Position numbers and translations under genes: made by a program
Source of the DNA: Sulfurovum sp.
Lineage (GTDB): Bacteria > Campylobacterota > Campylobacteria > Campylobacterales > Sulfurovaceae
Assembly (NCBI GenBank): GCA_027081115.1
Contig: JALWLD010000057.1
Span: 236,497-300,496 of the forward strand
Length of the DNA: 64,000 bases
Direction of reading: 5' to 3'
Shown here: positions 8,009-51,420 of the stretch, one piece after another
Numbering within the stretch: the first letter of the stretch is position 1
Layout: the number at the start of each line of letters is the position of its first letter
The notes under the pieces: model-generated
Databases searched by the model: none
The model's input: the letters and a program-made list of their open reading frames with translations, nothing else
Told to the model about the DNA's origin: nothing

Positions 8009-9409
8009 TTAGAGACCTTGAGAATCAACAAACTTTGGGTTACTTCTCTGGCATCGCAGTAAGGCATTTTTGGCCTCTCTTTTACTACTGTATTTACCAA
8101 AGTGAAGTTTACCAAGTGTATTACATGGTGTTTCTGATCTTTTACATCCTTTGTAAATCGAGGTTTCCTGTGTCAGAATTTTGTTGTTATAGCATACATA
8201 CAGACCTTCTGTAGTGGTAGACTTTGGATTATTTTTAATACATCGTAAAAATGCGCTGTGGGCTTTTTCATCATTGGGGTATTTACCAAAGTGCTCTTTT
8301 TTGAGATTGTTACATGCCTTGTTTGATCTGATGCATCCTGTATAGAAAGATTTTCCATTGTTTGTTGAAAACTTTTTACTATAGCAAACATAAGGATAAT
8401 AATGTTTTGAACTATTTTTATAACCATAACTGTCTAGAGTGGAACCATTTCCTGTAGGAGGAGTAGAGTTAGTTGTGATACTCTGCCTTTGTGCCGTACG
8501 CTTCTTCTCATCTTCTTTTTTTTCTTGCATAAACTCCTTGAGAAGTTGTTTAAGCTCTGCATAATCAGCATTTTTATTATTCTCTTTATCGCTGTTATTG
8601 CTTGATTGTATTGGATCAGAGGTATTGGCTGTATCATCCAACTGAAAATAAAAGTTACCTATAACAGAAGAGCTTGTCCATGGGAGTTGTTTTTCATGAC
8701 TCTCGTTATAAACAGATATTCTTGTTTGTTTAAAGACTTCATTCAGGGTTAGTCCATTTTTTTTAATATTGTCAATAAGATGTTTGGTAAAGAGGCCATT
8801 TCTGCCATTAACACCATCACTTGCGGTTTCTCCTGGTGCTGTAGCAAAGGCTATGTACATTCCTTTTGCATTGTTTATCTGTGCAAGTCCTCCGCCTCCC
8901 AGTGCTCTAGAGCTGCTAAAAGGATCATTTCTACAGGCATCCAATACAATGATATTCAGTCTGTTATGACTGTCTTCCATCTTTTTTATCACCAAGTTTA
9001 CAGGGAGTGTTTCAAACTCTACTTCTGTTTTATCTGGAATATCTGCATTGACAGGTATAAGATAGTTCTGACCATTTACCTCTACCCCATGACCTGCATA
9101 GTAGAAAAATCCTACACCTCCATTTTTAAGTTTATGTGCAAATTTTCTTACAATTTTCTTCATACTTCTAAGATCACCATCTTTTAGGTAGAGTACATCA
9201 AAACCTTTCTCTTTAAGAATATTTTGTATATCTTCCGCATCATTGAGTGTATTCTTGAGTGGGCTGAAGTTGTTGTAATTGGCATTACCTATGACAAGTG
9301 CTACTTTATTTTCGTTGGCATGCTGTTTTCTATAGATAGCACGGTCATTTGATGCTTCAGTAAAGAGTGTAAAAAGGATGAAAAAGAAGAGGATTTTACT
9401 ATATTTCAT
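8009..9409 (-). CDS. Exported caspase-like protease (C14) with two C-terminal Cys-rich modules
   Basis: The 466-residue product has a signal peptide (MKYSKILFFFILFTLFTEAS), so the protease acts outside the cytoplasm. The caspase p20 domain covers about residues 34-250, opening with VALVIGNANY. It has catalytic His107 in YYAGHG and Cys159 in VLDACRNDP, and closes with the usual WTSSSVIGNFYF segment. A low-complexity linker rich in Asn, Glu, Lys and Gln (about 260-330) leads to two tandem modules of about 60 residues. Each holds four Cys and the shared core HFGKY, then a Leu-Arg-Cys pair (FLRC, LLRC), with one module beginning YVCYSKK and the other YVCYNNK. The modules probably form disulfides and may bind a ligand. 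Both catalytic residues are intact. Monocistronic, convergent with the M14-like gene. Confidence 0.85.
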   Translation of the reverse strand: MKYSKILFFFILFTLFTEASNDRAIYRKQHANENKVALVIGNANYNNFSPLKNTLNDAEDIQNILKEKGFDVLYLKDGDLRSMKKIVRKFAHKLKNGGVGFFYYAGHGVEVNGQNYLIPVNADIPDKTEVEFETLPVNLVIKKMEDSHNRLNIIVLDACRNDPFSSSRALGGGGLAQINNAKGMYIAFATAPGETASDGVNGRNGLFTKHLIDNIKKNGLTLNEVFKQTRISVYNESHEKQLPWTSSSVIGNFYFQLDDTANTSDPIQSSNNSDKENNKNADYAELKQLLKEFMQEKKEDEKKRTAQRQSITTNSTPPTGNGSTLDSYGYKNSSKHYYPYVCYSKKFSTNNGKSFYTGCIRSNKACNNLKKEHFGKYPNDEKAHSAFLRCIKNNPKSTTTEGLYVCYNNKILTQETSIYKGCKRSETPCNTLGKLHFGKYSSKREAKNALLRCQRSNPKFVDSQGL

Positions 9410-9450
9410 TGAGTATCTTTTTATTTTTATATTAGTATGATAATTATAAC

Positions 9451-9591
9451 CTATTTATCATAAAGTGGAACATTCCAGTATTTTTTCTTTTCAGTATCAT
9501 AGTAATATGGAATATTTTTTATGGTTTTTTCTAGCCCCTCTAGTAGTGTGATTTTAGGTTTAAAGTGCATTAGGTTTTCTACTTTAGTGAC
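9451..9591 (-). pseudogene. 3' fragment of an NAD-dependent sugar epimerase/dehydratase gene
   Basis: On the minus strand 46 codons end at TAG (9451-9453). They read like the C-terminus of nucleotide-sugar epimerases: FKPKITLLEGLEKTI corresponds to the usual (G)-x-x-P-x-x-x-L-x-x-G-L-x-x-T tail. A stop lies directly upstream (9592-9594) and no other part of the gene is present, so this is a relic, probably of a gene removed when the hydrolase block arrived or was rearranged. The assignment rests on a single short motif. Confidence 0.4.
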
Positions 9592-9614
9592 CTAATGAAG
9601 AGAGTATATAGTAC

Positions 9615-9637
9615 TCCCAAGTAAAAGTTACTTGGGA
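9615..9637. terminator. Stem-loop downstream of adk
   Basis: A perfect 10-bp inverted repeat (TCCCAAGTAA and TTACTTGGGA) with a 3-base loop lies 11 bases after the adk stop codon. There is no U-run on its 3' side, so it may be a weak terminator or an mRNA-stabilising hairpin for the aspS-adk transcript. Confidence 0.5.
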
Positions 9638-9647
9638 TGAGAAAAAA

Positions 9648-10241
9648 TTAGATTTTACTTAGTACAAATGCTTCCATTTCAGCAACTACCTCTTCAAGTG
9701 TTCTTTCACCATTGATGATAGTAAGAAGTCCTTTGTCTGTATAGAATCTTTGGATAGCTCCTAGAGGTTCTGTATAGATATTCATTCTGTCGTTAAATAC
9801 CTCTTCTGAGTCATCTGAACGCTCTTCACCTGGTGCAGCTTCTGCTCTACGTCCGAGGATTCTCTCTCTTGCACAGGCTTCAGTCACTCTTACTTCAATC
9901 ACTGATGCGAGTTCAATATTGTCTTCTTTGGAAACCAATTCATCAAAAGCAGTCATCTGCTCTTCACTTCTTGGGTAACCGTCAATGAGTACATTGTCAA
10001 CAGGTGCATTGTTAATGGCTGATACAATGGTGTTTACGATGATCTCCAATGGTACAAGTGCACCTCTTTTAATATAAGAGTCGATCTCTTTTCCTAATTC
10101 AGAGCCAGAAGCAACTTCTTCTCTTAACATATCTCCTGTAGAATAATGTACAATTTTGTCAGCATTATTTTCGGCAATGATACTTGCATCTGTTGTTTTT
10201 CCTGAGCCAGGTGCTCCGATGATTAAAAATAGTTTTTTCAT
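9648..10241 (-). CDS. adk: Adenylate kinase
   Basis: Catalyses ATP + AMP to 2 ADP in the cytoplasm and balances adenine nucleotides. The P-loop GAPGSGKTT lies at residues 9-17, followed by the AMP-binding STGDMLR and the conserved DGYPRS segment. The LID region is short (LGRRAEAAPGEERSDD), with no zinc-finger Cys, so this is a short-form enzyme of 197 residues. ATG follows a good AAAGGA site. It lies 19 bases downstream of aspS on the same strand and is likely co-transcribed with it, then closed by the stem-loop at 9615-9637. Nothing unusual. Confidence 0.97.
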   Translation of the reverse strand: MKKLFLIIGAPGSGKTTDASIIAENNADKIVHYSTGDMLREEVASGSELGKEIDSYIKRGALVPLEIIVNTIVSAINNAPVDNVLIDGYPRSEEQMTAFDELVSKEDNIELASVIEVRVTEACARERILGRRAEAAPGEERSDDSEEVFNDRMNIYTEPLGAIQRFYTDKGLLTIINGERTLEEVVAEMEAFVLSKI

Positions 10242-28405: not shown

Positions 28406-29233
28406 ATGGTCATGAAGGGTAAAAAAGGTGTTATTTTAGGTATCGCCAACAAAAAATCAATTGCATACGGTATTGCAAAAGCATGTCAAGAGCAGGGTGC
28501 TGAGATGGCTATCACTTTCTTGAATGAGAGATTTGAACAGAAACTGGCACCCATTGCCGAAGATCTGGACTGTGGTACAAGACTCTACCCTTGTGATGTC
28601 TCTAAGCCAGAAGAGATCAAAGCACTCAAAGAGTCTCTTGAAAAAGATATGGGGCAGATAGACTTTATTGTACACTCTATTGCTTTTGCACCTAAAGAGG
28701 GCTTGAGTGGTCGTTTTATAGATATTTCAAAAGAGGCTTTTGATGTGGCTATGGATATCTCGGTCTATTCTCTTATTGAGATCGTAAGAGAACTTAAACC
28801 TATACTCTCTTCAAATTCATCTGTGTTAACTCTCTCTTATTACGGTGGAGAAAAATGGATCCCGAACTATAACCTTATGGGTGTAGCAAAAGCAGCACTT
28901 GAGATGACAGTCAAATATCTTGCAGAAGATCTTGGAAAAGATGGCATTCGCGTTAATGCCATCTCAGCAGGACCAATTAAAACACTTGCAGCAGCAGGGA
29001 TCGGTGATTTCTCTTTCATGTTGAAGTGGAACAAAGCACACGCTCCAATGAAAGAGAATGTAACCATTGCACAGGTAGGAAACTCAGGAATGTATCTGCT
29101 TTCAGATCTCTCTTCGGGTGTCACAGGAGAGATTCACTATGTAGATGGCGGGTATAACATCATGGGGATGCCGGCAGTAAAGTTTGACGAAGAAGGTAAA
29201 CCTCATATTGCATGGAACGGGGAGTCTAAATAG
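28406..29233 (+). CDS. fabI: Enoyl-[acyl-carrier-protein] reductase FabI
   Basis: Last reductive step of each fatty-acid elongation cycle; target of triclosan-type inhibitors. Short-chain dehydrogenase fold with the FabI-type nucleotide loop GIANKKSIAYGIAKA. The catalytic Tyr/Lys region reads YNLMGVAKAALE, preceded by LSYYGGEKW. Length 275. AGGAG lies seven bases before the first ATG, so that ATG is used rather than the one two codons on. Followed after seven bases by an rRNA methyltransferase gene. Confidence 0.96.
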   Translation: MVMKGKKGVILGIANKKSIAYGIAKACQEQGAEMAITFLNERFEQKLAPIAEDLDCGTRLYPCDVSKPEEIKALKESLEKDMGQIDFIVHSIAFAPKEGLSGRFIDISKEAFDVAMDISVYSLIEIVRELKPILSSNSSVLTLSYYGGEKWIPNYNLMGVAKAALEMTVKYLAEDLGKDGIRVNAISAGPIKTLAAAGIGDFSFMLKWNKAHAPMKENVTIAQVGNSGMYLLSDLSSGVTGEIHYVDGGYNIMGMPAVKFDEEGKPHIAWNGESK

Positions 29234-29240
29234 ACTGCCT

Positions 29241-29999
29241 ATGAAAGCTGATTCTCCTGAATACCTGGCCAAAAAGGCATTTTTTGACAAAGTCTTAACG
29301 ATTTACGGACGTAATGCTGTTATGGAAGCACTGGAAGATAAAGCAGTGTCTGTTCATAAACTGCACCTCTCCAAGTCCAATAAAGATGCCACTGTTCTTG
29401 AACAGATGAAGTCTCTGGCCAAAAAGCGTAAGATTGAAGTAAAGTATCATGATAAACAGTCTCTCTCCCGTATCTCCAAAAATGCAAAGCAGGATCAAGG
29501 CGTGGCTCTAGACCTTGTTTTAGAACATTTTGGTGATGAAGAGAGTTTTAAACAAGTGCATAAAAGTTACCGTATTGTTGCACTTGATGGTGTGACCAAT
29601 CCTCAAAATCTGGGTATGATCATACGTTCCTGTGCCGCAGGCAATATAGATGCCATTTTACTGCCTACCAAAGGTGCAGCGCAGATAAGTCCTTTGGTTA
29701 TCAAGGCGAGTGCAGGCACACTTTTTAAAATGCCTATTATCAAAACAACCAATCTTAAAAAGACACTGGCATCTTTTAAAAAAGAGGGTGCAGAGGTTTA
29801 TACCCTTTCTTCTCATGCTAAGTCTAACTATAAAGAACAACACTATAACTCTAAAACTATTTTTGTATTGGGAAATGAAAGTGAGGGGGTAAGTAGAGAG
29901 ATAGAAGCATTGTCCACTCAGAGTATCGCTATCCCTATGCAAAGGGGTGTTGAGTCACTCAATGTGGCTGTGACCGCTTCTTTGCTTGCATTTCTATAA
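29241..29999 (+). CDS. rlmB: SpoU/TrmH-family 23S rRNA 2'-O-methyltransferase (RlmB-like)
   Basis: Methylates a ribose in 23S rRNA or a tRNA using SAM. The knotted SPOUT domain is clear: VTNPQNLGMIIRSCAAGN (motif 1), FVLGNESEGVS (motif 2) and ESLNVAVTASLLAF (motif 3). An N-terminal substrate-binding domain starts YGRNAVMEAL. The ATG at 29241 lies just after fabI; a longer frame would overlap fabI. The last 49 bases of the gene (29941-29989) occur again at 32304-32352, and the downstream cargo begins right after its stop. RlmB versus TrmH specificity is not settled from sequence alone. Confidence 0.88.
   Translation: MKADSPEYLAKKAFFDKVLTIYGRNAVMEALEDKAVSVHKLHLSKSNKDATVLEQMKSLAKKRKIEVKYHDKQSLSRISKNAKQDQGVALDLVLEHFGDEESFKQVHKSYRIVALDGVTNPQNLGMIIRSCAAGNIDAILLPTKGAAQISPLVIKASAGTLFKMPIIKTTNLKKTLASFKKEGAEVYTLSSHAKSNYKEQHYNSKTIFVLGNESEGVSREIEALSTQSIAIPMQRGVESLNVAVTASLLAFL
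29941..29989 (+). repeat. Direct repeat copy 1: 3' end of rlmB
   Basis: A 49-base stretch at the rlmB 3' end, identical to 32304-32352. It encodes the C-terminal motif of the methyltransferase. The next codons of both copies still spell Ala-Phe-Leu-stop but with different bases, so the two copies have diverged at synonymous sites. Confidence 0.95.
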
Positions 30000-30016
30000 A
30001 CTTCAAAGTCACATGT

Positions 30017-30022
30017 TATAAT
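30017..30022 (+). promoter_or_regulatory. -10 element (TATAAT) cut off from its gene by an IS
   Basis: Perfect TATAAT just after rlmB. Without the IS insertion it would lie about 35 bases before the start of the repeat lipoprotein. The same ATGTTATAAT string follows the second rlmB repeat (32377-32382). Confidence 0.55.
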
Positions 30023-30028
30023 AACAAC

Positions 30029-30765
30029 GGGTCTAGTAAACTTTAAGAAGCAAAAAGGTATCTTAAAGCATGGCTACACCGAACAAAGACAAGTATTCAA
30101 AAGGTACGCACATTTCAGAGCGTAAATTTAGGCAGTTAATTAAGTGTTTTTCGCTTGATTTAAATGCCTATGAAACATCCAAAATAACAAACATATCCCA
30201 TACAACATGCAAGAAGATATTTCAAAAGCTTCGCATCTATATCTATAAAAACCTACTTAATAAATAATGCTGACGATGGAGAATTTGAATTAGATGAATC
30301 TTACTTTGGTGCAAAACGTATTAGAGGTAAACGTGGACGAGGTGCAGCAGGAAAAACACCTGTCTTTGGATTACTTAAACGTGATGGTAATGTTTATGTA
30401 CAAATAGTAAAGAACTGCTCCAAAGACGAACTGATGCCTATAATAGAGGGTAAAATACTAGAGAGAAGCACAATTCACACAGATGGATGGAAAGCTTATG
30501 ATGGTTTAGTTCTTAATGGGTATGACCACTATAGGGTCTTTCATTCTAAAGATGAATTTGTCAGAGGAAAGTCTCATGTAAACGGTACTGAATCTTTTTG
30601 GAGTTTTACCAAAAGAAGATTAGCACAGTTCAACGGACTTAGAGATGAGATGTTTTATTTGTATTTTAAGGAGAGTTAATTTAGATTTAATAATAGATAT
30701 AACAATGCTTATGTTATACTATTGAAGAATTTTAGAAAAAATAACCTCTAAAGTTTACTAGACCC
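30029..30765 (+). mobile_element. IS1595-family insertion sequence with 17-bp inverted repeats and TAACAAC target duplication
   Basis: The 737-bp element is bounded by 17-bp perfect inverted repeats beginning GGGTCTAGTAAACTTTA (30029-30045 and the complement at 30749-30765). The flanks carry the 7-base direct repeat TAACAAC (30022-30028 and 30766-30772), as expected for target-site duplication; IS1595 elements usually give 8 bases. It contains one transposase gene split by a frameshift. It sits between a -10 box and the ribosome site of the repeat lipoprotein gene. Confidence 0.85.
30070..30679 (+). pseudogene. IS1595-family (ISXO2-like) transposase, frameshifted
   Basis: The first frame (30070-30267) encodes a 65-residue N-terminal part with a helix-turn-helix-like segment. 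A +1 frame change in the A-rich stretch around 30245-30267 leads into the DDE domain with ELDESYFGAKRIRGKRGRG, then HTDGWKAYDG and GTESFWSFTKRR, ending at 30679. These are the catalytic-site motifs of the ISXO2-like transposase family. The N-terminal zinc ribbon usual in longer members is absent. Programmed shifting in IS elements is normally -1, so this +1 change more probably means an inactive copy or a read error in a run of five A. Confidence 0.8.
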
Positions 30766-30794
30766 TAACAACAATATAAATTTAAGGATTATCT

Positions 30795-32288
30795 ATGCAG
30801 CGACACAAATGGAGACAATGGCTACTTATGGCTACCCTAACACTTATGATGAGTGCTTGTGGTGGTGGTGACTCTGATGGTGCTGAGATAGCAGCAGGTT
30901 CAAACCCTTTAGATGCAAGTTCAACTTTGAAAGATACCTACTTCATCATCACTGTTGAGACTAACAATACAGGTACATCATCAGACACAGAGTTTATTAT
31001 CCCTACTTACCCAGATGAGAGTTATAACTACAATGTAGACTGTGACAATGATGGTATAGATGAAGCTATAGCTGTGACGGGAGACTATACTTGTAGATAT
31101 GATAGTATAGGAGTATACACCATAGCCATCAAAGACAACACAGGTAAAAGAGAAGGTTTCCCAAGAATCTATTTTAACTATGAAAAAGACAGAGAGAAAC
31201 TCATTGGCATCAACCAATGGGGAGCAGGAAAATGGACTTCGATGGAGAGAGCTTTTAGGGGATGCTCTAAGCTCAATGATGCAGGAGGAGCAGCTACAGA
31301 TAAGCCTGATCTTTCTGCTGTGACAGATATGTATGCTATGTTCTCTGGAGCCACCGCCTTCAACCAAGACATAGGCGTATGGGACACCAGTGCTGTGACA
31401 AGTATGGCTTTTATGTTTTATAATGCCTCCACCTTCAACCAAGACATAGGCGCATGGGAGACCAGTGCTGTGACAGATATGGGTTTTATGTTCTATCAAG
31501 CCACCGCCTTCAACCAAGACATAGGCGCATGGGACACCAGTGCTGTGACAAGTATGGGTTATATGTTCTATGAAGCCTCCACCTTCAACCAAGACATAGG
31601 CGCATGGGACACCAGTGCTGTGACAAGTATGTATAGTATGTTCCGTGAAGCCACCGCCTTCAACCAAGACATAGGCGCATGGGAGACCAGTGCTGTGACA
31701 AGTATGGGTTATATGTTCTATGGAGCTACTGCCTTTAACCAAAACATAGGCGCATGGAACACCAGTGCCGTGACAAATATGCGTTCTATGTTCTCTAATG
31801 CTACCGCCTTCAACCAAAACATAGGCGCATGGAACACCAGTGCTGTGACAGGTATGTATGGTATGTTCTATGGAGCCACCGCCTTCAACCAAAACATAGG
31901 CGCATGGGACACCAGTGCTGTGACATATATGGGCTTTATGTTCTCTGGAGCCACCACCTTCAACCAAGACATAGGCGCATGGGAGACCAGTGCTGTGACA
32001 GATATGCGTTATATGTTCTATGAAGCCACCACCTTCAACCAAGACATAGGCGCATGGGACACCAGTGCTGTGACAAATATGGGTTGGATGTTCAATGGAG
32101 CCACCGCCTTCAACCAAAACATAGGCGCATGGGACACCAGTGCTGTGACAGATATGAGTTATATGTTTTATTATGCTACTGGATTTACAAATCAAGACTT
32201 AAGTGGCTGGTCTGTTGATAATGTGGCTAATCATGATAACTTTATGACAGGTGCAGGTACTGGTAATACTGAGCCTGTTTGGCCGTAA
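30795..32288 (+). CDS. Surface lipoprotein with DUF285/BspA-like repeats
   Basis: The 497-residue product has a lipoprotein signal ([10 protein letters not shown]; Cys about 22) and a Thr/Asp-rich stalk to residue 186. Then come eleven copies of a 25-residue repeat (residues 187-461) with consensus [15 protein letters not shown]-x-M-x-x-MF, the pattern of DUF285/BspA-family leucine-rich-like surface repeats. A non-repeat cap ([13 protein letters not shown]) closes it. BspA-type proteins of other bacteria bind host or matrix proteins. The gene has a good AAGGA site, but the IS upstream separates it from its apparent promoter. It is bracketed with the IS by two copies of the rlmB end, suggesting it came as cargo. 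Confidence 0.85.
31353..32177 (+). repeat. Eleven tandem 75-bp coding repeats
   Basis: Exactly 11 x 75 bases inside the surface lipoprotein gene. Many units are nearly identical at the DNA level (shared ACCAGTGCTGTGACA, CAAGACATAGGCGCATGG), differing mainly in the codons after SAVT. This predicts slippage or recombination that changes repeat number. Confidence 0.95.
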
Positions 32289-32303
32289 GGGGAGGAAGCA
32301 TAA

Positions 32304-32352
32304 AAAGGGGTGTTGAGTCACTCAATGTGGCTGTGACCGCTTCTTTGCTTGC
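32304..32352 (+). repeat. Direct repeat copy 2: orphan 3' end of an rlmB gene
   Basis: Identical to 29941-29989, continuing GCT TTT TTG TAA, which spells the same C-terminal residues (Ala-Phe-Leu-stop) as rlmB with different codons. There is no upstream rlmB sequence here. It forms the right edge of the 2.3-kb IS plus lipoprotein segment. Confidence 0.95.
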
Positions 32353-32376
32353 TTTTTTGTAATATTTACTTTATGT

Positions 32377-32382
32377 TATAAT
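32377..32382 (+). promoter_or_regulatory. Likely -10 element (TATAAT) for the small protein gene
   Basis: Perfect TATAAT 30 bases before the next ATG, directly after the orphan rlmB end and inside a string shared with the first copy (ATGTTATAAT). Confidence 0.5.
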
Positions 32383-32411
32383 GGATTTGGCAATATCATA
32401 AAGGAGTTCTT

Positions 32412-32726
32412 ATGCCTCAAGAAAAAGAAGAAATATTTAAAAAGATCGGTGTTGATATTAGTGAAAATAACATCAACATTGACCTCACTAAAACAAAAGA
32501 TTTTTTCAATACCTTACAAAATACACTTCAAAAAAAAGCAGAAACGATCGAAAAAGATATTTCAGAAGGGAAGATAGACCTGGAAGAGAATGTGGGGATC
32601 AAGGTAGATAATGAGCATATCAATATTGATTTAGAAAAAACCAAAAGCTTTATAGAAAGTTTTGGACAAAAGATAGAAGGTTTTTTGGCAGAACTTGAAC
32701 ATACTATTGGAAAGTTAGATAAATAA
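32412..32726 (+). CDS. Small charged helical protein
   Basis: Not recognised. A 104-residue cytoplasmic product, strongly charged and helical, with an internal duplication: NINIDLTKTKDFF in the first half and HINIDLEKTKSFI in the second, about 55 residues apart. AAAGGAG precedes the ATG. It may be the original neighbour of rlmB before the cargo arrived, as it follows the orphan rlmB end with its own promoter. Confidence 0.6.
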   Translation: MPQEKEEIFKKIGVDISENNINIDLTKTKDFFNTLQNTLQKKAETIEKDISEGKIDLEENVGIKVDNEHINIDLEKTKSFIESFGQKIEGFLAELEHTIGKLDK

Positions 32727-32788
32727 ATTATAGTTCTATGTCAATTTGATATATTTTAAAAGTACCTATACAAAAAAAGGATGTAGAC

Positions 32789-35236
32789 ATGTATAAAATA
32801 ATTAAATTACTTTTTAGCACATTAGCATTACTTATTTTAGTATCTTGTGGCAGTGGTGAAATTGTAAACAGTGCTTCAGATGCAACACAAAAAGAAGCCA
32901 TCGAAACTATAGCTACATATGCTCAAGAAGATAGTACTGTAAAACCTACAGTAAAAGACTATATAGATGCAGGTATATTGGGTGTTACAAATACCAACTT
33001 AATAGATATCAATAATGCAATAAGAGCACTAAACTACGATGATGTCAATGAAAGAGCTGAAATACAAGCGGTAGTAGATGGCATAATACAAGGTTGTGCA
33101 CAAGTCATTACGCATGCCTATAACCCTGCAACTTTAGAAGAGAGAGATTTCCCTACGCCTTGTGCTGTTCCTGAGGGATGGATACTTGGAAGTTTTATAA
33201 TAAAAACGCCTCATAGTTATGGTGAAGACGGAGGACATCCTGTGTCTCATCATGATGAGGTAGATGCCAATATGACTACAGTCTATTACCCTGCCGACAT
33301 ACCAGATGGTGTAAAAGTACCCGTCGTTTTCTTTGCCTCTGGGTATGGTTCGGCTGATTCGAAAGACTATGAGTCTCTTTTAACATTTATCGCCAGTCAT
33401 GGATACTATGTCATCTATGCCAAACATGCATGGAGCAATGTCTTTGCCAATATGGATAAGATGCTTGATAATACAAATGGGATACTTCCCAAGCTAGACA
33501 CAACACGTATAGGGGTACTGGGGCACTCTTTGGGTGGAGGGTATACTTTTAATATACTCAAACATTTTTCAGATATGGGGTATGGTACAAATGGTAGATT
33601 TATCATGGTGCTAGAGGGCTATTATGCTTATGATCTCACTAAGCAGGAGATGCAGAATCTCCCTTCCAATACCAATGTAGTGATGCAGCAGTATGGTGCA
33701 GGAGGAAACAACGGGGTAAACGATACTGACCCTCGCATCACACTCACAGAGTTTTATATGCTCGACTCCATACCGAACAATCAAAAAGATTGGCAGATAG
33801 TAGAAAATGCAGACCATCGCTATCCGTATGGCAGTGGGGCATACAGTTCTATGCAGGGTATTTTAAAACCATTGGATGCACTGATGGAGTATACATTTAA
33901 AGGTACAGCCTCAGCACATAACATTGCACTGGAAGTAGGGAGTGATGATCCTTATGCACATGGTAATGGTATACAGGTTGTGAACCCTATATCCGACTAT
34001 GGCTACAAATGCGACCATGATATTAATGTAGCGATAGATTATTGTGATATGGCACAGTGGTACAGTAACAAACAGCTGATTCTTCACCAAAAAGGGCACT
34101 GGCTCCCTAGTATGGCAGGCAACTTTTCTTCAAGGGCTGCATACATTAACACCTTACCTTTTTCTGGGTTTACCATGGTGGGTAACTCTTATACTGACAG
34201 GGTAATGGAATCCAATACTACACTGCTGACTTACTCATATATTTGGGATGAAGTCAAAAATGTAAAAGACTTATACCCTACAAAATCAAACTTTTTAACG
34301 GTACATATGCATTACCCGGGTGACTTTTGGGATGATGCTGTATGGAATAATGTTATAGAAAACTTTAAAACTCTGGCTAAAGTAGCCAAAGATTTAGGCT
34401 ACAGAGGCATCCTCTATGATGATGAGGCCTATGATGTAGAGAGCCATAAGATGATTAACTACAAGCATGGTGATGCGTGGTACGATGATGATGCCTATAA
34501 AAATCCTAACTATACGTTTGTAGAACACTCAGCCAAGATTACAGCACGTTTCCAGCAGATTATGGAAGCAATGGTAAGTGAGTACCCTGCTATAGATGTA
34601 CTCTATTATCACTCTCCAGTAGAAGGACATATAGAAGCCAATGATGGTATCAACGGACACCCTGTGGTAGTAAATGTAGGACTTGAACGTCAACACGAAT
34701 GGATGGGTGCTATGTTTACAGGGTTTAAAAAAGGACTCTCTCATCAGGCTACACTGCATGACATGGGAGAGGACTATAGACTGCGTACACAGGCTCATTT
34801 TGATGATGCTTACGCATGGCGTAAATACACAATAGCGTCTGATGCTACCAATGATGTCGTAGATGCCACTCAGCACTGGATACTCCCACAAGAAGAACGT
34901 GTCTCATGGGCTACAGAAGTACATGTAAACTTTATGGTTTCAAATGAACCATTGGCAAGCGACTCCTACCCTGAGTTTGACACTACAAACACTGTAGGAC
35001 TCAATGATATGAAGACGACACTCGAACGTGCATTAGACAAGAGTGATACATATGTTACTTTCTACTCTGCCTCTTCATCTGATAATAAAGGAGGGCTTAT
35101 TCCGCTAGATTGGCTCAATGACCCTGCTACACATGCAGATGATGGTTCGGCTTATAGTCTAGATCCAGATTGGAAAGCTATGGTGGAAGATGTCTATACT
35201 AACAAGGTGCTAAAGGGCACCTCTAACAATAGGTGA
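32789..35236 (+). CDS. Large lipoprotein: alpha/beta hydrolase plus unknown C-terminal domain
   Basis: The signal ends in the lipobox LVSC (Cys20). Residues about 130-400 form an alpha/beta hydrolase of the dienelactone/cutinase-like kind: oxyanion region FASGYGS, nucleophile GHSLGGG (Ser247) and a likely His in NADHRYPYGSG. The C-terminal half (about 470-760) is unrelated: it contains HMHYPGDFWDD, GYRGILYDDEAYDVE and VLYYHSPVEGH, a pattern recalling TIM-barrel glycoside hydrolases, but no family is recognised. An ester- or glycan-cleaving surface enzyme is possible. The last seven codons and the stop lie inside the left terminal repeat of the palindromic element at 35215, so the native C-terminus has been replaced. 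Confidence 0.7.
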   Translation: MYKIIKLLFSTLALLILVSCGSGEIVNSASDATQKEAIETIATYAQEDSTVKPTVKDYIDAGILGVTNTNLIDINNAIRALNYDDVNERAEIQAVVDGIIQGCAQVITHAYNPATLEERDFPTPCAVPEGWILGSFIIKTPHSYGEDGGHPVSHHDEVDANMTTVYYPADIPDGVKVPVVFFASGYGSADSKDYESLLTFIASHGYYVIYAKHAWSNVFANMDKMLDNTNGILPKLDTTRIGVLGHSLGGGYTFNILKHFSDMGYGTNGRFIMVLEGYYAYDLTKQEMQNLPSNTNVVMQQYGAGGNNGVNDTDPRITLTEFYMLDSIPNNQKDWQIVENADHRYPYGSGAYSSMQGILKPLDALMEYTFKGTASAHNIALEVGSDDPYAHGNGIQVVNPISDYGYKCDHDINVAIDYCDMAQWYSNKQLILHQKGHWLPSMAGNFSSRAAYINTLPFSGFTMVGNSYTDRVMESNTTLLTYSYIWDEVKNVKDLYPTKSNFLTVHMHYPGDFWDDAVWNNVIENFKTLAKVAKDLGYRGILYDDEAYDVESHKMINYKHGDAWYDDDAYKNPNYTFVEHSAKITARFQQIMEAMVSEYPAIDVLYYHSPVEGHIEANDGINGHPVVVNVGLERQHEWMGAMFTGFKKGLSHQATLHDMGEDYRLRTQAHFDDAYAWRKYTIASDATNDVVDATQHWILPQEERVSWATEVHVNFMVSNEPLASDSYPEFDTTNTVGLNDMKTTLERALDKSDTYVTFYSASSSDNKGGLIPLDWLNDPATHADDGSAYSLDPDWKAMVEDVYTNKVLKGTSNNR

Positions 35237-47223: not shown

Positions 47224-47496
47224 ATGTATAAATGGAACGAAGATAAAAATAGCATCTTGAAATCTCAAAGGGGTTTTAGCTTTGATGATGTGTTGCAAAA
47301 GATGAAAGAAGATGGTGTGTTAGACAACTATAAACACCCAAATGTTGAGAAATATCCAAATCAATACATCTATGTTGTTGAGCTTGGAGGATATATACAC
47401 TATATACCGTATGTGTATGACGGTGATGATATATTTTTGAAAAATATCATACCGAGTAGAAAACTACACAAAAAATATGGAAAGGATAAGTCATGA
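47224..47496 (+). CDS. BrnT-like toxin of a toxin-antitoxin pair
   Basis: 90 residues. The start (YKWNEDKNSILKSQRGFSFDDV) and end (LKNIIPSRKLHKKYG) follow the BrnT/DUF497 layout, a RelE-fold ribonuclease whose C-terminal Arg/Lys-rich segment is catalytic. The middle is divergent. Toxin-first order and 4-base overlap with the next gene match BrnTA. The assignment is by pattern and context. Confidence 0.65.
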   Translation: MYKWNEDKNSILKSQRGFSFDDVLQKMKEDGVLDNYKHPNVEKYPNQYIYVVELGGYIHYIPYVYDGDDIFLKNIIPSRKLHKKYGKDKS

Positions 47497-47762
47497 AATA
47501 TACAGATGAAGAACTAGAGTTGTTAAATGCCCTAGAAGAAAAAGAACCAACAACAGTTAGTTTCGATAATGAAGCTATTAAAACCATGGCAGGTGATACG
47601 CTAGAGTATCTTAATGAAAAAAAACAAATTAGCATCAACCTAAAACGTTCAGACCTTGACTTCATAAAGCAAAGAGCAAAAGATATTGGTATTTCCTATC
47701 AGAGTATTATCCAGTCATTGGTACATAATTATAGTACGAATAAGTTGGAATTGAAGTTATAG
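47493..47762 (+). CDS. BrnA/CopG-like antitoxin
   Basis: 89 residues. The acidic N-terminus is followed by a ribbon-helix-helix segment (QISINLKRSDLDFIKQRAKDIGISYQSI), the DNA-binding fold of BrnA/CopG antitoxins that repress their own promoter. Coupled to the toxin by ATGA. Together with the consensus promoter this supports an intact module. Confidence 0.7.
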   Translation: MKYTDEELELLNALEEKEPTTVSFDNEAIKTMAGDTLEYLNEKKQISINLKRSDLDFIKQRAKDIGISYQSIIQSLVHNYSTNKLELKL

Positions 47763-48969: not shown

Positions 48970-49365
48970 ATGCCAATTTTTGCTTTACAATCATTTGTCG
49001 GAGGTTTTTTAGATGAAGATCTGAAAAATTTCAATAAAATTTTTGACGATTGGTGTGTACAGTTTGAGAGTATAGAAGACGCACAGCTTATACTAGATAC
49101 CCTTGAAAAAAATGAGCAGATAAAGATAGTTGAAATTACACCGTTAAGTTACCCGAAATACTTTTTCCCAAAACTACAGGGCATCATCCATGCTACACGA
49201 GAATATGAAGGAAAAATCATCTGCATTGTCGAGCCACAAATGGGTATGAGCTTTCGCATAGCTATATGTGATTTGCAGACTAAAAATGTAAGAGTACTTG
49301 GAACACGTTATAAGAGTACGGTAAATGTCGAAGGGGCATTTGCCAACCTCTCTTTTGACTTATAA
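48970..49365 (+). CDS. Hypothetical protein, intact parent of a decayed copy
   Basis: 131 residues, not recognised. It is probably a small alpha-beta domain: EQIKIVEITPLSYPKYFFP, then GKIICIVEPQMG and VRVLGTRYKS. A truncated, frame-damaged second copy lies at 51066-51420 in the same orientation, including the leader string ending AGGATAATACAAATG. The two copies bracket two minus-strand genes (CDF and a four-helix protein). Confidence 0.55.
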   Translation: MPIFALQSFVGGFLDEDLKNFNKIFDDWCVQFESIEDAQLILDTLEKNEQIKIVEITPLSYPKYFFPKLQGIIHATREYEGKIICIVEPQMGMSFRIAICDLQTKNVRVLGTRYKSTVNVEGAFANLSFDL

Positions 49366-51065: not shown

Positions 51066-51420
51066 TTTTAAATTGAAGGATAATACAAATGAATATTTTT
51101 GATGATTGGTGTGAGTGGTACTAAATACCCTTGAAAAAAATGGGCAGATCAAGATCGTTGAGATTACACCGCTAAGTTACCCGAAATACTTTTTTCCAAA
51201 ACTACAGGGTCTCATCCATGCCACACGAGAATATGAAGGAAAAATTATCTGCATTATCGAGCCACAAATGGGTATGAACTTTTGCATAGCTATATGTGTT
51301 TTTCAGACTAAAAATGTAAGGGTACTTGGAACACGTTATAAGAGTAGGGTAAATGTCGAAGGGGCATTTGCCAATTTGTCTTGTAATCAGAAATTTGACA
51401 AAATTAGAAAAAGTAGTTAA
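51066..51420 (+). pseudogene. Decayed second copy of the 131-residue gene
   Basis: The leader and ATG (AGGATAATACAAATG), then a gap, IFDDWC, another gap, then TLEKNGQIKIVEITPLSYPKY and the rest match the intact copy at 48970-49365. Two internal deletions break the frame: the ATG frame stops after about ten codons. The end has diverged, and a promoter for the next toxin-antitoxin pair lies in it. Confidence 0.75.

Follow-up and report, generated by a model that had tools for sequence, protein, structure and literature searches.

The 3′ end of rlmB, a gene for a SpoU family rRNA methyltransferase, is present twice in the 64,000-nt stretch of Sulfurovum sp. DNA analysed here (the window: assembly GCA_027081115.1, contig JALWLD010000057.1, forward strand, 236,497 to 300,496), once as the end of the intact gene and once as an orphan piece further downstream, with an insertion sequence (IS) and a gene for a DUF285 repeat lipoprotein, the cargo, in between. 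This arrangement is probably a sporadic scar of homology-anchored DNA import via the rlmB tail, and not the product of a dedicated insertion site. The features of the locus are listed below; the name of the fabI-like gene is the label used in an earlier annotation by a model that saw only the letters and a list of open reading frames (ORFs), here called the sequence-only reading.

28406..29233, plus strand: fabI-like gene, an ORF upstream of rlmB
29241..29999, plus strand: rlmB, SpoU family rRNA methyltransferase, intact, with a putative start codon (PF00588, PF08032)
29941..29999, plus strand: tail copy 1, the intact gene end, 49 exact bases and 10 with 3 synonymous differences
30013..30022, plus strand: ATGTTATAAT, promoter-like string 5′ of the cargo, now split from the cargo by the IS
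30029..30765, plus strand: IS1595/ISXO2-type insertion sequence with 17-bp perfect terminal inverted repeats (PF12762)
30795..32288, plus strand: cargo, 497-residue DUF285 (BspA-like) repeat protein with 75-nt repeats (PF03382)
32304..32362, plus strand: tail copy 2, the orphan, interpreted as the native end of rlmB after displacement
32373..32382, plus strand: ATGTTATAAT, promoter-like string that belongs to the native junction of rlmB and g104
32412..32726, plus strand: g104, 104-residue gene without a Pfam match, the ancestral neighbour of rlmB

The names rlmB, rnr and ychJ, here and below, derive from Pfam family matches; radA, acpS, tex, sbcD, hemL and holA were assigned by reading the translations.

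An exact second copy of the final 49 bases of rlmB (29941-29989) is present at 32304-32352, and a match of this length within 64 kb is not due to chance. Carried on to the stop codon, the direct repeat extends over 59 bases at 94.9% identity. Its 3 differences are all synonymous (GCA/GCT, CTA/TTG) and are confined to the last 10 of the 59 positions, where they would all land with a probability of 0.0037; this crowding at the right edge is expected if a crossover took place inside the 49 bases that do not differ. A search for the 49-mer that allowed up to 3 mismatches found it twice in its own genome and in none of 77 other genomes of the genus. The sequence-only reading had described the exact repeat, the Ala-Phe-Leu-stop that both copies encode with differing codons, the promoter-like string after each copy (ATGTTATAAT, 30013-30022 and 32373-32382) and the lack of an integrase, all of which hold: no integrase was found among the ORFs between the copies or in the Pfam matches of the six proteins scanned at the locus. 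The promoter-like strings require no connection with the insertion. The one that follows the orphan is part of the ancestral rlmB-g104 junction and is similar to those of several relatives.

A search for rlmB in 59 other genomes yielded loci for the 30 best matches, one of them from the window's own genome. The gene end could be compared in 26 of the other 29 (25 from the genus and one from the order), all in species other than that of the window, over stretches of 228 to 13,360 bases downstream of the gene. In eight of these 26 relatives, g104 lies at most 72 bp from rlmB, which is the empty site that the sequence-only reading had proposed to look for. In two more, an extra gene that looks CAP-like by eye separates rlmB from g104, without a repeated tail, and in the remaining 16, g104 was not found in the stretch examined, partly owing to short stretches. 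Most relatives whose sequence extends far enough upstream have the fabI-like gene next to rlmB. The searched stretch of each relative holds a single rlmB tail; none of the 26 repeats its own tail downstream or shares the rlmB-cargo-orphan arrangement of the window. The empty site together with the missing tail repeats shows a lineage-specific insertion that pushed the native tail downstream: rlmB-g104 is an old junction, and of the genomes seen, this lineage alone has the insertion. The orphan, its promoter-like string and g104 are the resident part, and we infer that the last codons of the intact gene came with the cargo. That the orphan, and not the intact end, precedes the ancestral g104 junction supports the import reading.

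A deletion that followed a tandem duplication of rlmB could also leave just an orphan tail. This is extremely improbable, since neither a second rlmB tail nor, by that measure, the full duplication named in the sequence-only reading was seen in the 26 stretches, the window's own genome has one rlmB (its three further matches are SpoU relatives at 29-44% identity), and the lipoprotein gene, with its own 3′ flank, reaches right up to the orphan. In another genome of the set, G021, the first 34 residues of rlmB have a second match at the extreme end of a 4,888-base contig (L324, G021:C18, 4787-4888), and the full gene lies on a different contig.

Similar architecture is found at other genes. A first scan, aimed at direct repeats shared by a gene end and an orphan piece, covered 47 stretches (486,378 bases, window included). 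At tex in G024, a 67-bp repeat (89.6%) encloses a BrnT/CopG-like pair, both members of which score under the Pfam cut-offs. At radA in G019, the repeat measures 65 bp (100%), and the cargo includes three dynamin-like GTPases and a WCX-domain protein. Repeats of 130 and 60 bp (92-93%) occur at hemL/ychJ in G015, where a DUF285 lipoprotein is again part of the cargo. A nested order is seen in G018 (L225, G018:C56): rnr, a C5 methylase and a PD-(D/E)XK protein, an orphan, an NgoPII-type enzyme and a second C5 methylase, and finally holA; the orphan consists of the rnr tail joined to the start of holA. In G012, a fragment of tex stands behind an antitoxin-like reading frame, and G024 has a weaker case at a helix-turn-helix (HTH) gene. 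Across the sites, repeat lengths range from 59 to 264 bp. Empty sites are seen here as well: acpS is at most 135 bp away from radA in 27 of 30 loci, and rnr at most 78 bp from holA in 20 of 30 holA loci. Behind tex, the sbcD-like gene was found in only one of 20 other loci whose sequence extends to the end of tex.

The 264-bp repeat (92%) belongs to the window itself (49091-49354 / 51119-51382), where the end of a 131-residue gene and a shortened copy of it (101 residues) enclose two genes, one for cation efflux and one whose 150-residue product has no Pfam match. Closely similar CopG-like antitoxin genes occur at 47493-47762 of the window and in the tex cargo of G024 (L032, 6457-6726).

Islands that bring their own integrase to the 3′ end of a protein gene likewise leave an intact gene end on one side and an orphan end on the other. 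A non-autonomous element with the rlmB 3′ end as its attachment site, moved by a recombinase acting in trans, would therefore give an identical topology, and the repeats at rlmB, tex and radA extend beyond the stop codon by 0, 4 and 3 bases, although exact identity at rlmB breaks off 10 bases before it. Such site-specific integration is nonetheless unlikely. The rlmB locus differs from integrase-borne islands in that no integrase is seen, the site is not reused and, elsewhere, a gene start is employed: neither the cargo proteins scanned at the other sites nor the ORF lists contain an integrase, the genes differ from site to site, as do the repeat lengths, holA contributes its start, and the rlmB tail has no second use in the stretches of the 26 relatives. 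We also found no exact copy of the 49-mer in viral contigs, and a dedicated rlmB attachment site is unsupported. Of the sequence-only reading, the entry of cargo at a conserved gene 3′ end with an orphan left behind is supported; the idea that the C-terminal coding motif of rlmB serves as a special insertion or recombination site is not, and the search it suggested for orphan rlmB tails in other genomes came back empty, both in the stretches of the 26 relatives and, for the 49-mer, in every one of the 78 genomes except its own.

An assembly artefact, in which the assembler used the 49 bases in common to link the chromosome with a strain variant or an extrachromosomal circle, is very improbable. 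The assembly does consist of 133 contigs with 6.18% contamination, and the same contig contains a 124-bp repeat around a run of N within one gene. The stretch 28500-33600, on the other hand, is free of N, each junction has its own flanking sequence, and comparable architecture exists in other assemblies, including the tex locus in the single-contig genome G024.

The divergence between the copies bears on how they came to lie side by side. In ten copy pairs, hand-chosen from the scan lists and with two stop-for-stop changes scored as synonymous, we counted 45 synonymous and 22 non-synonymous differences over 189 and 702 sites, respectively (binomial p 8e-16). If an in-place duplicate decayed freely while the gene was held under selection for an equal time, about two thirds of the differences would be expected to be non-synonymous (702 vs 2 x 189). 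The copies, differing mainly at synonymous positions, thus resemble diverged alleles and not a decaying duplicate made in place. The ratios (synonymous:non-synonymous) are 7:0 for holA, 3:1 for rnr, 6:1 for tex of G024 and 3:0 for rlmB; the six best pairs (rlmB, tex of G024, hemL, ychJ, rnr and holA), a selection made after the results had been seen, amount to 30:4. These six pairs, with holA as the clearest case, have the look of alleles from two lineages that have come to lie in one genome. By the same counts, the pairs of the 131-residue gene and the HTH gene appear decayed or paralogous, and the 12:9 ratio of the former would mark an older scar or a paralogue.

It could still be supposed that the insertion duplicated its target in place, in a transposition-like or replicative manner, and that one copy was later replaced by the allele of another strain. 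This would fit the name given to a like pattern in Helicobacter pylori (see below), and the radA copies, identical over 65 bp, agree with it. We nevertheless judge it improbable, since the extra step of allele replacement is needed for each of holA, rnr, tex of G024 and rlmB; furthermore, no enzyme is known to us whose duplications vary so much in length.

In the import that we favour, the incoming fragment would carry an rlmB end from a closely related lineage where rlmB was followed by the lipoprotein gene. The cargo, a promoter and the DUF285 gene, would measure about 1.6 kb without the IS. By one route, the fragment would circularise and enter by a single RecA crossover within the tail; by the other, homology in rlmB would provide an anchor, with an illegitimate join at the other end just ahead of the resident tail (homology-facilitated illegitimate recombination). 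The outcome of either would be an intact rlmB with the incoming last codons, followed by the cargo and then the resident tail, orphaned before g104. The IS would have inserted afterwards: it is read as later than the cargo because it lies between the promoter-like string and the lipoprotein gene. It is flanked by a 7-bp TAACAAC duplication, and its transposase is broken into two short ORFs (65 and 81 aa), the second of which matches PF12762 (ISXO2-like/IS1595). Either route would explain the variable repeat lengths, the use of tails and of one start, the diverse cargo and the lack of integrases. Natural DNA uptake is plausible in this lineage, judging from the ComEC and DprA family genes present in its genome.

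The cargo protein has a lipoprotein-like signal (MSAC, judged by eye) and is encoded by the sole DUF285 gene found in its genome. A homologue search scored 7,677 proteins, and the 120 matches listed all contain PF03382; the relatives found by scanning the genome contigs share at most 52% identity with it. For holA, methylases 93-96% identical to the second methylase of G018 adjoin the gene in four of 29 other loci. In the two longer of these (G082 and G074; L224 and L227), rnr is on the far side, and the scan lists no flanking repeat. Loci of this kind, where rnr and holA also enclose a similar restriction system, are possibly the donor form; comparison of the holA start alleles singled out no donor. 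The rnr-holA junction repeatedly houses restriction-modification systems in the genus (L225, L224, L227, L293, L295, L301, L311).

Several observations weigh against import. A clean rlmB-lipoprotein junction was found in no genome, and the pieces that flank the cargo gave matches of at best 14-15 bases in the sequence searched, the 3′ piece none at all. Since the two rlmB copies do not differ in their first 49 bp, imported and resident sequence cannot be distinguished there from the window alone, and a homology of 59 bp is short. Not all pairs differ mainly at synonymous sites: besides the 131-residue gene (12:9), the HTH gene (3:8) and tex of G012 (0:1) do not, and the radA copies do not differ at all. 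At tex, the evidence for a resident orphan is weak: over 66 positions, the orphan has 5 differences from the sister genome and the gene copy 8, and no break in identity is seen along the gene. ComEC and DprA families also occur in 10 and 11 of 14 control genomes; being so widespread, they are no proof of competence. The scars are, finally, infrequent. In G024, 400 kb sampled at even spacing contained one weak pair (L147), and 360 kb of the window's own contig gave a single row (L262) and nothing that was kept.

That row (own contig C57, 142-265 / 497-620) is the 124-bp repeat, 99.2% identical, on either side of the run of N within one gene, and is probably a scaffolding fault. From 400 kb of G039, outside the family, six rows were obtained, of which L284 resembles the end of a paralogue. 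The spaced samples do not show an enrichment of scars near cargo, and we claim none; scars at these gene ends are sporadic. Stretches around C5 methylases yielded one kept case in 20 (L225), and those around BrnT genes none in 20. A habit specific to DUF285 genes was likewise discarded: among 20 DUF285 stretches, repeats occur in L115, L117, L119, L120, L125 and L129, and only L117 is counted as a gene-end scar, L115 repeating a whole small gene, L119 the first half of an ATP-grasp-like gene, and L120, L125 and L129 having been left out of the inspection. In L119 (G014:C6, 3622-4596 / 9019-10014), two genes that look ATP-grasp-like by eye share their first part (584 bp, 99.7%) and differ in their second, with the DUF285 gene between the two.

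The row-by-row check took in all rows but those three, L033, L034, L040, L041, L042, L222, L146 (ORFs only), the 33-bp rows L167 and L207, and the G039 rows except L284. Dropped in its course were L141 (paralogues), L140 (a repeat of 38 bp that lies 5′ of genes), L144 (a pair of similar genes), L249 (an AraC-like paralogue) and, on inspection, L250. Five further rows, L239, L242, L245 (G000:C33), L251 and L253, were set aside as resembling integron attC arrays (by eye; L239 and L242 by row pattern only); they show attC-like repeats of about 50-110 bp amid BrnT toxin-antitoxin genes, including in the window's own genome.

The pattern as such has a name. "Insertion with long target duplication" was coined in 2000 for H. 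pylori, often for restriction genes, by Nobusato, Uchiyama, Ohashi and Kobayashi (Gene 259:99, as described in the cited parts of PMC1643837 and PMC4978471), and the rlmB locus is placed in this known kind. As far as those descriptions go, the two share a cargo that is missing in a relative and a direct repeat that exceeds a transposon footprint, and the restriction-modification cargo at rnr-holA of G018 is of the same sort. The window differs in that its cargo is a DUF285 lipoprotein gene, its repeat is a gene end, and several copy pairs are allele-like. An Escherichia coli experiment that sought homology-facilitated illegitimate recombination judged 56 of 60 clones, in the part of PMC3240628 drawn on here, to be single crossovers of circular molecules; these had lost part of the homologous gene end, and 109-950 bp were duplicated in the 14 that were sequenced. 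A homologous gene end partly duplicated beside non-homologous cargo is what we see at rlmB too, albeit over 59 bp, in a system of another genus; the homology-facilitated events described there bring a deletion. For type VI effectors of Vibrio cholerae, the relevant part of PMC5361080 proposes that a homology-anchored insertion pushed the 3′ end of the resident gene downstream. The displacement is alike; there, a resident effector gene is displaced, whereas at rlmB the housekeeping gene is still complete.

The allele-like signature in the copies may be new: literature searches, which were not directed specifically at this point, turned up no report of it. With it, the origin of long target duplications can be tested at the sequence level, in that alleles should differ synonymously, as the ten chosen pairs do overall (45:22). 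Gene-end scars also surround cargo other than restriction genes and are a possible route to recently acquired genes, and to their donors, from single genomes. We suggest, tentatively, that in these bacteria small surface and defence modules may move without a recombinase of their own, with the end of a neighbouring housekeeping gene as the address and re-entry by a single crossover. If that is true, "long target duplications" would be allele pairs from two lineages, and each scar would identify both parties, the recipient through its orphan end and the donor through its intact one.

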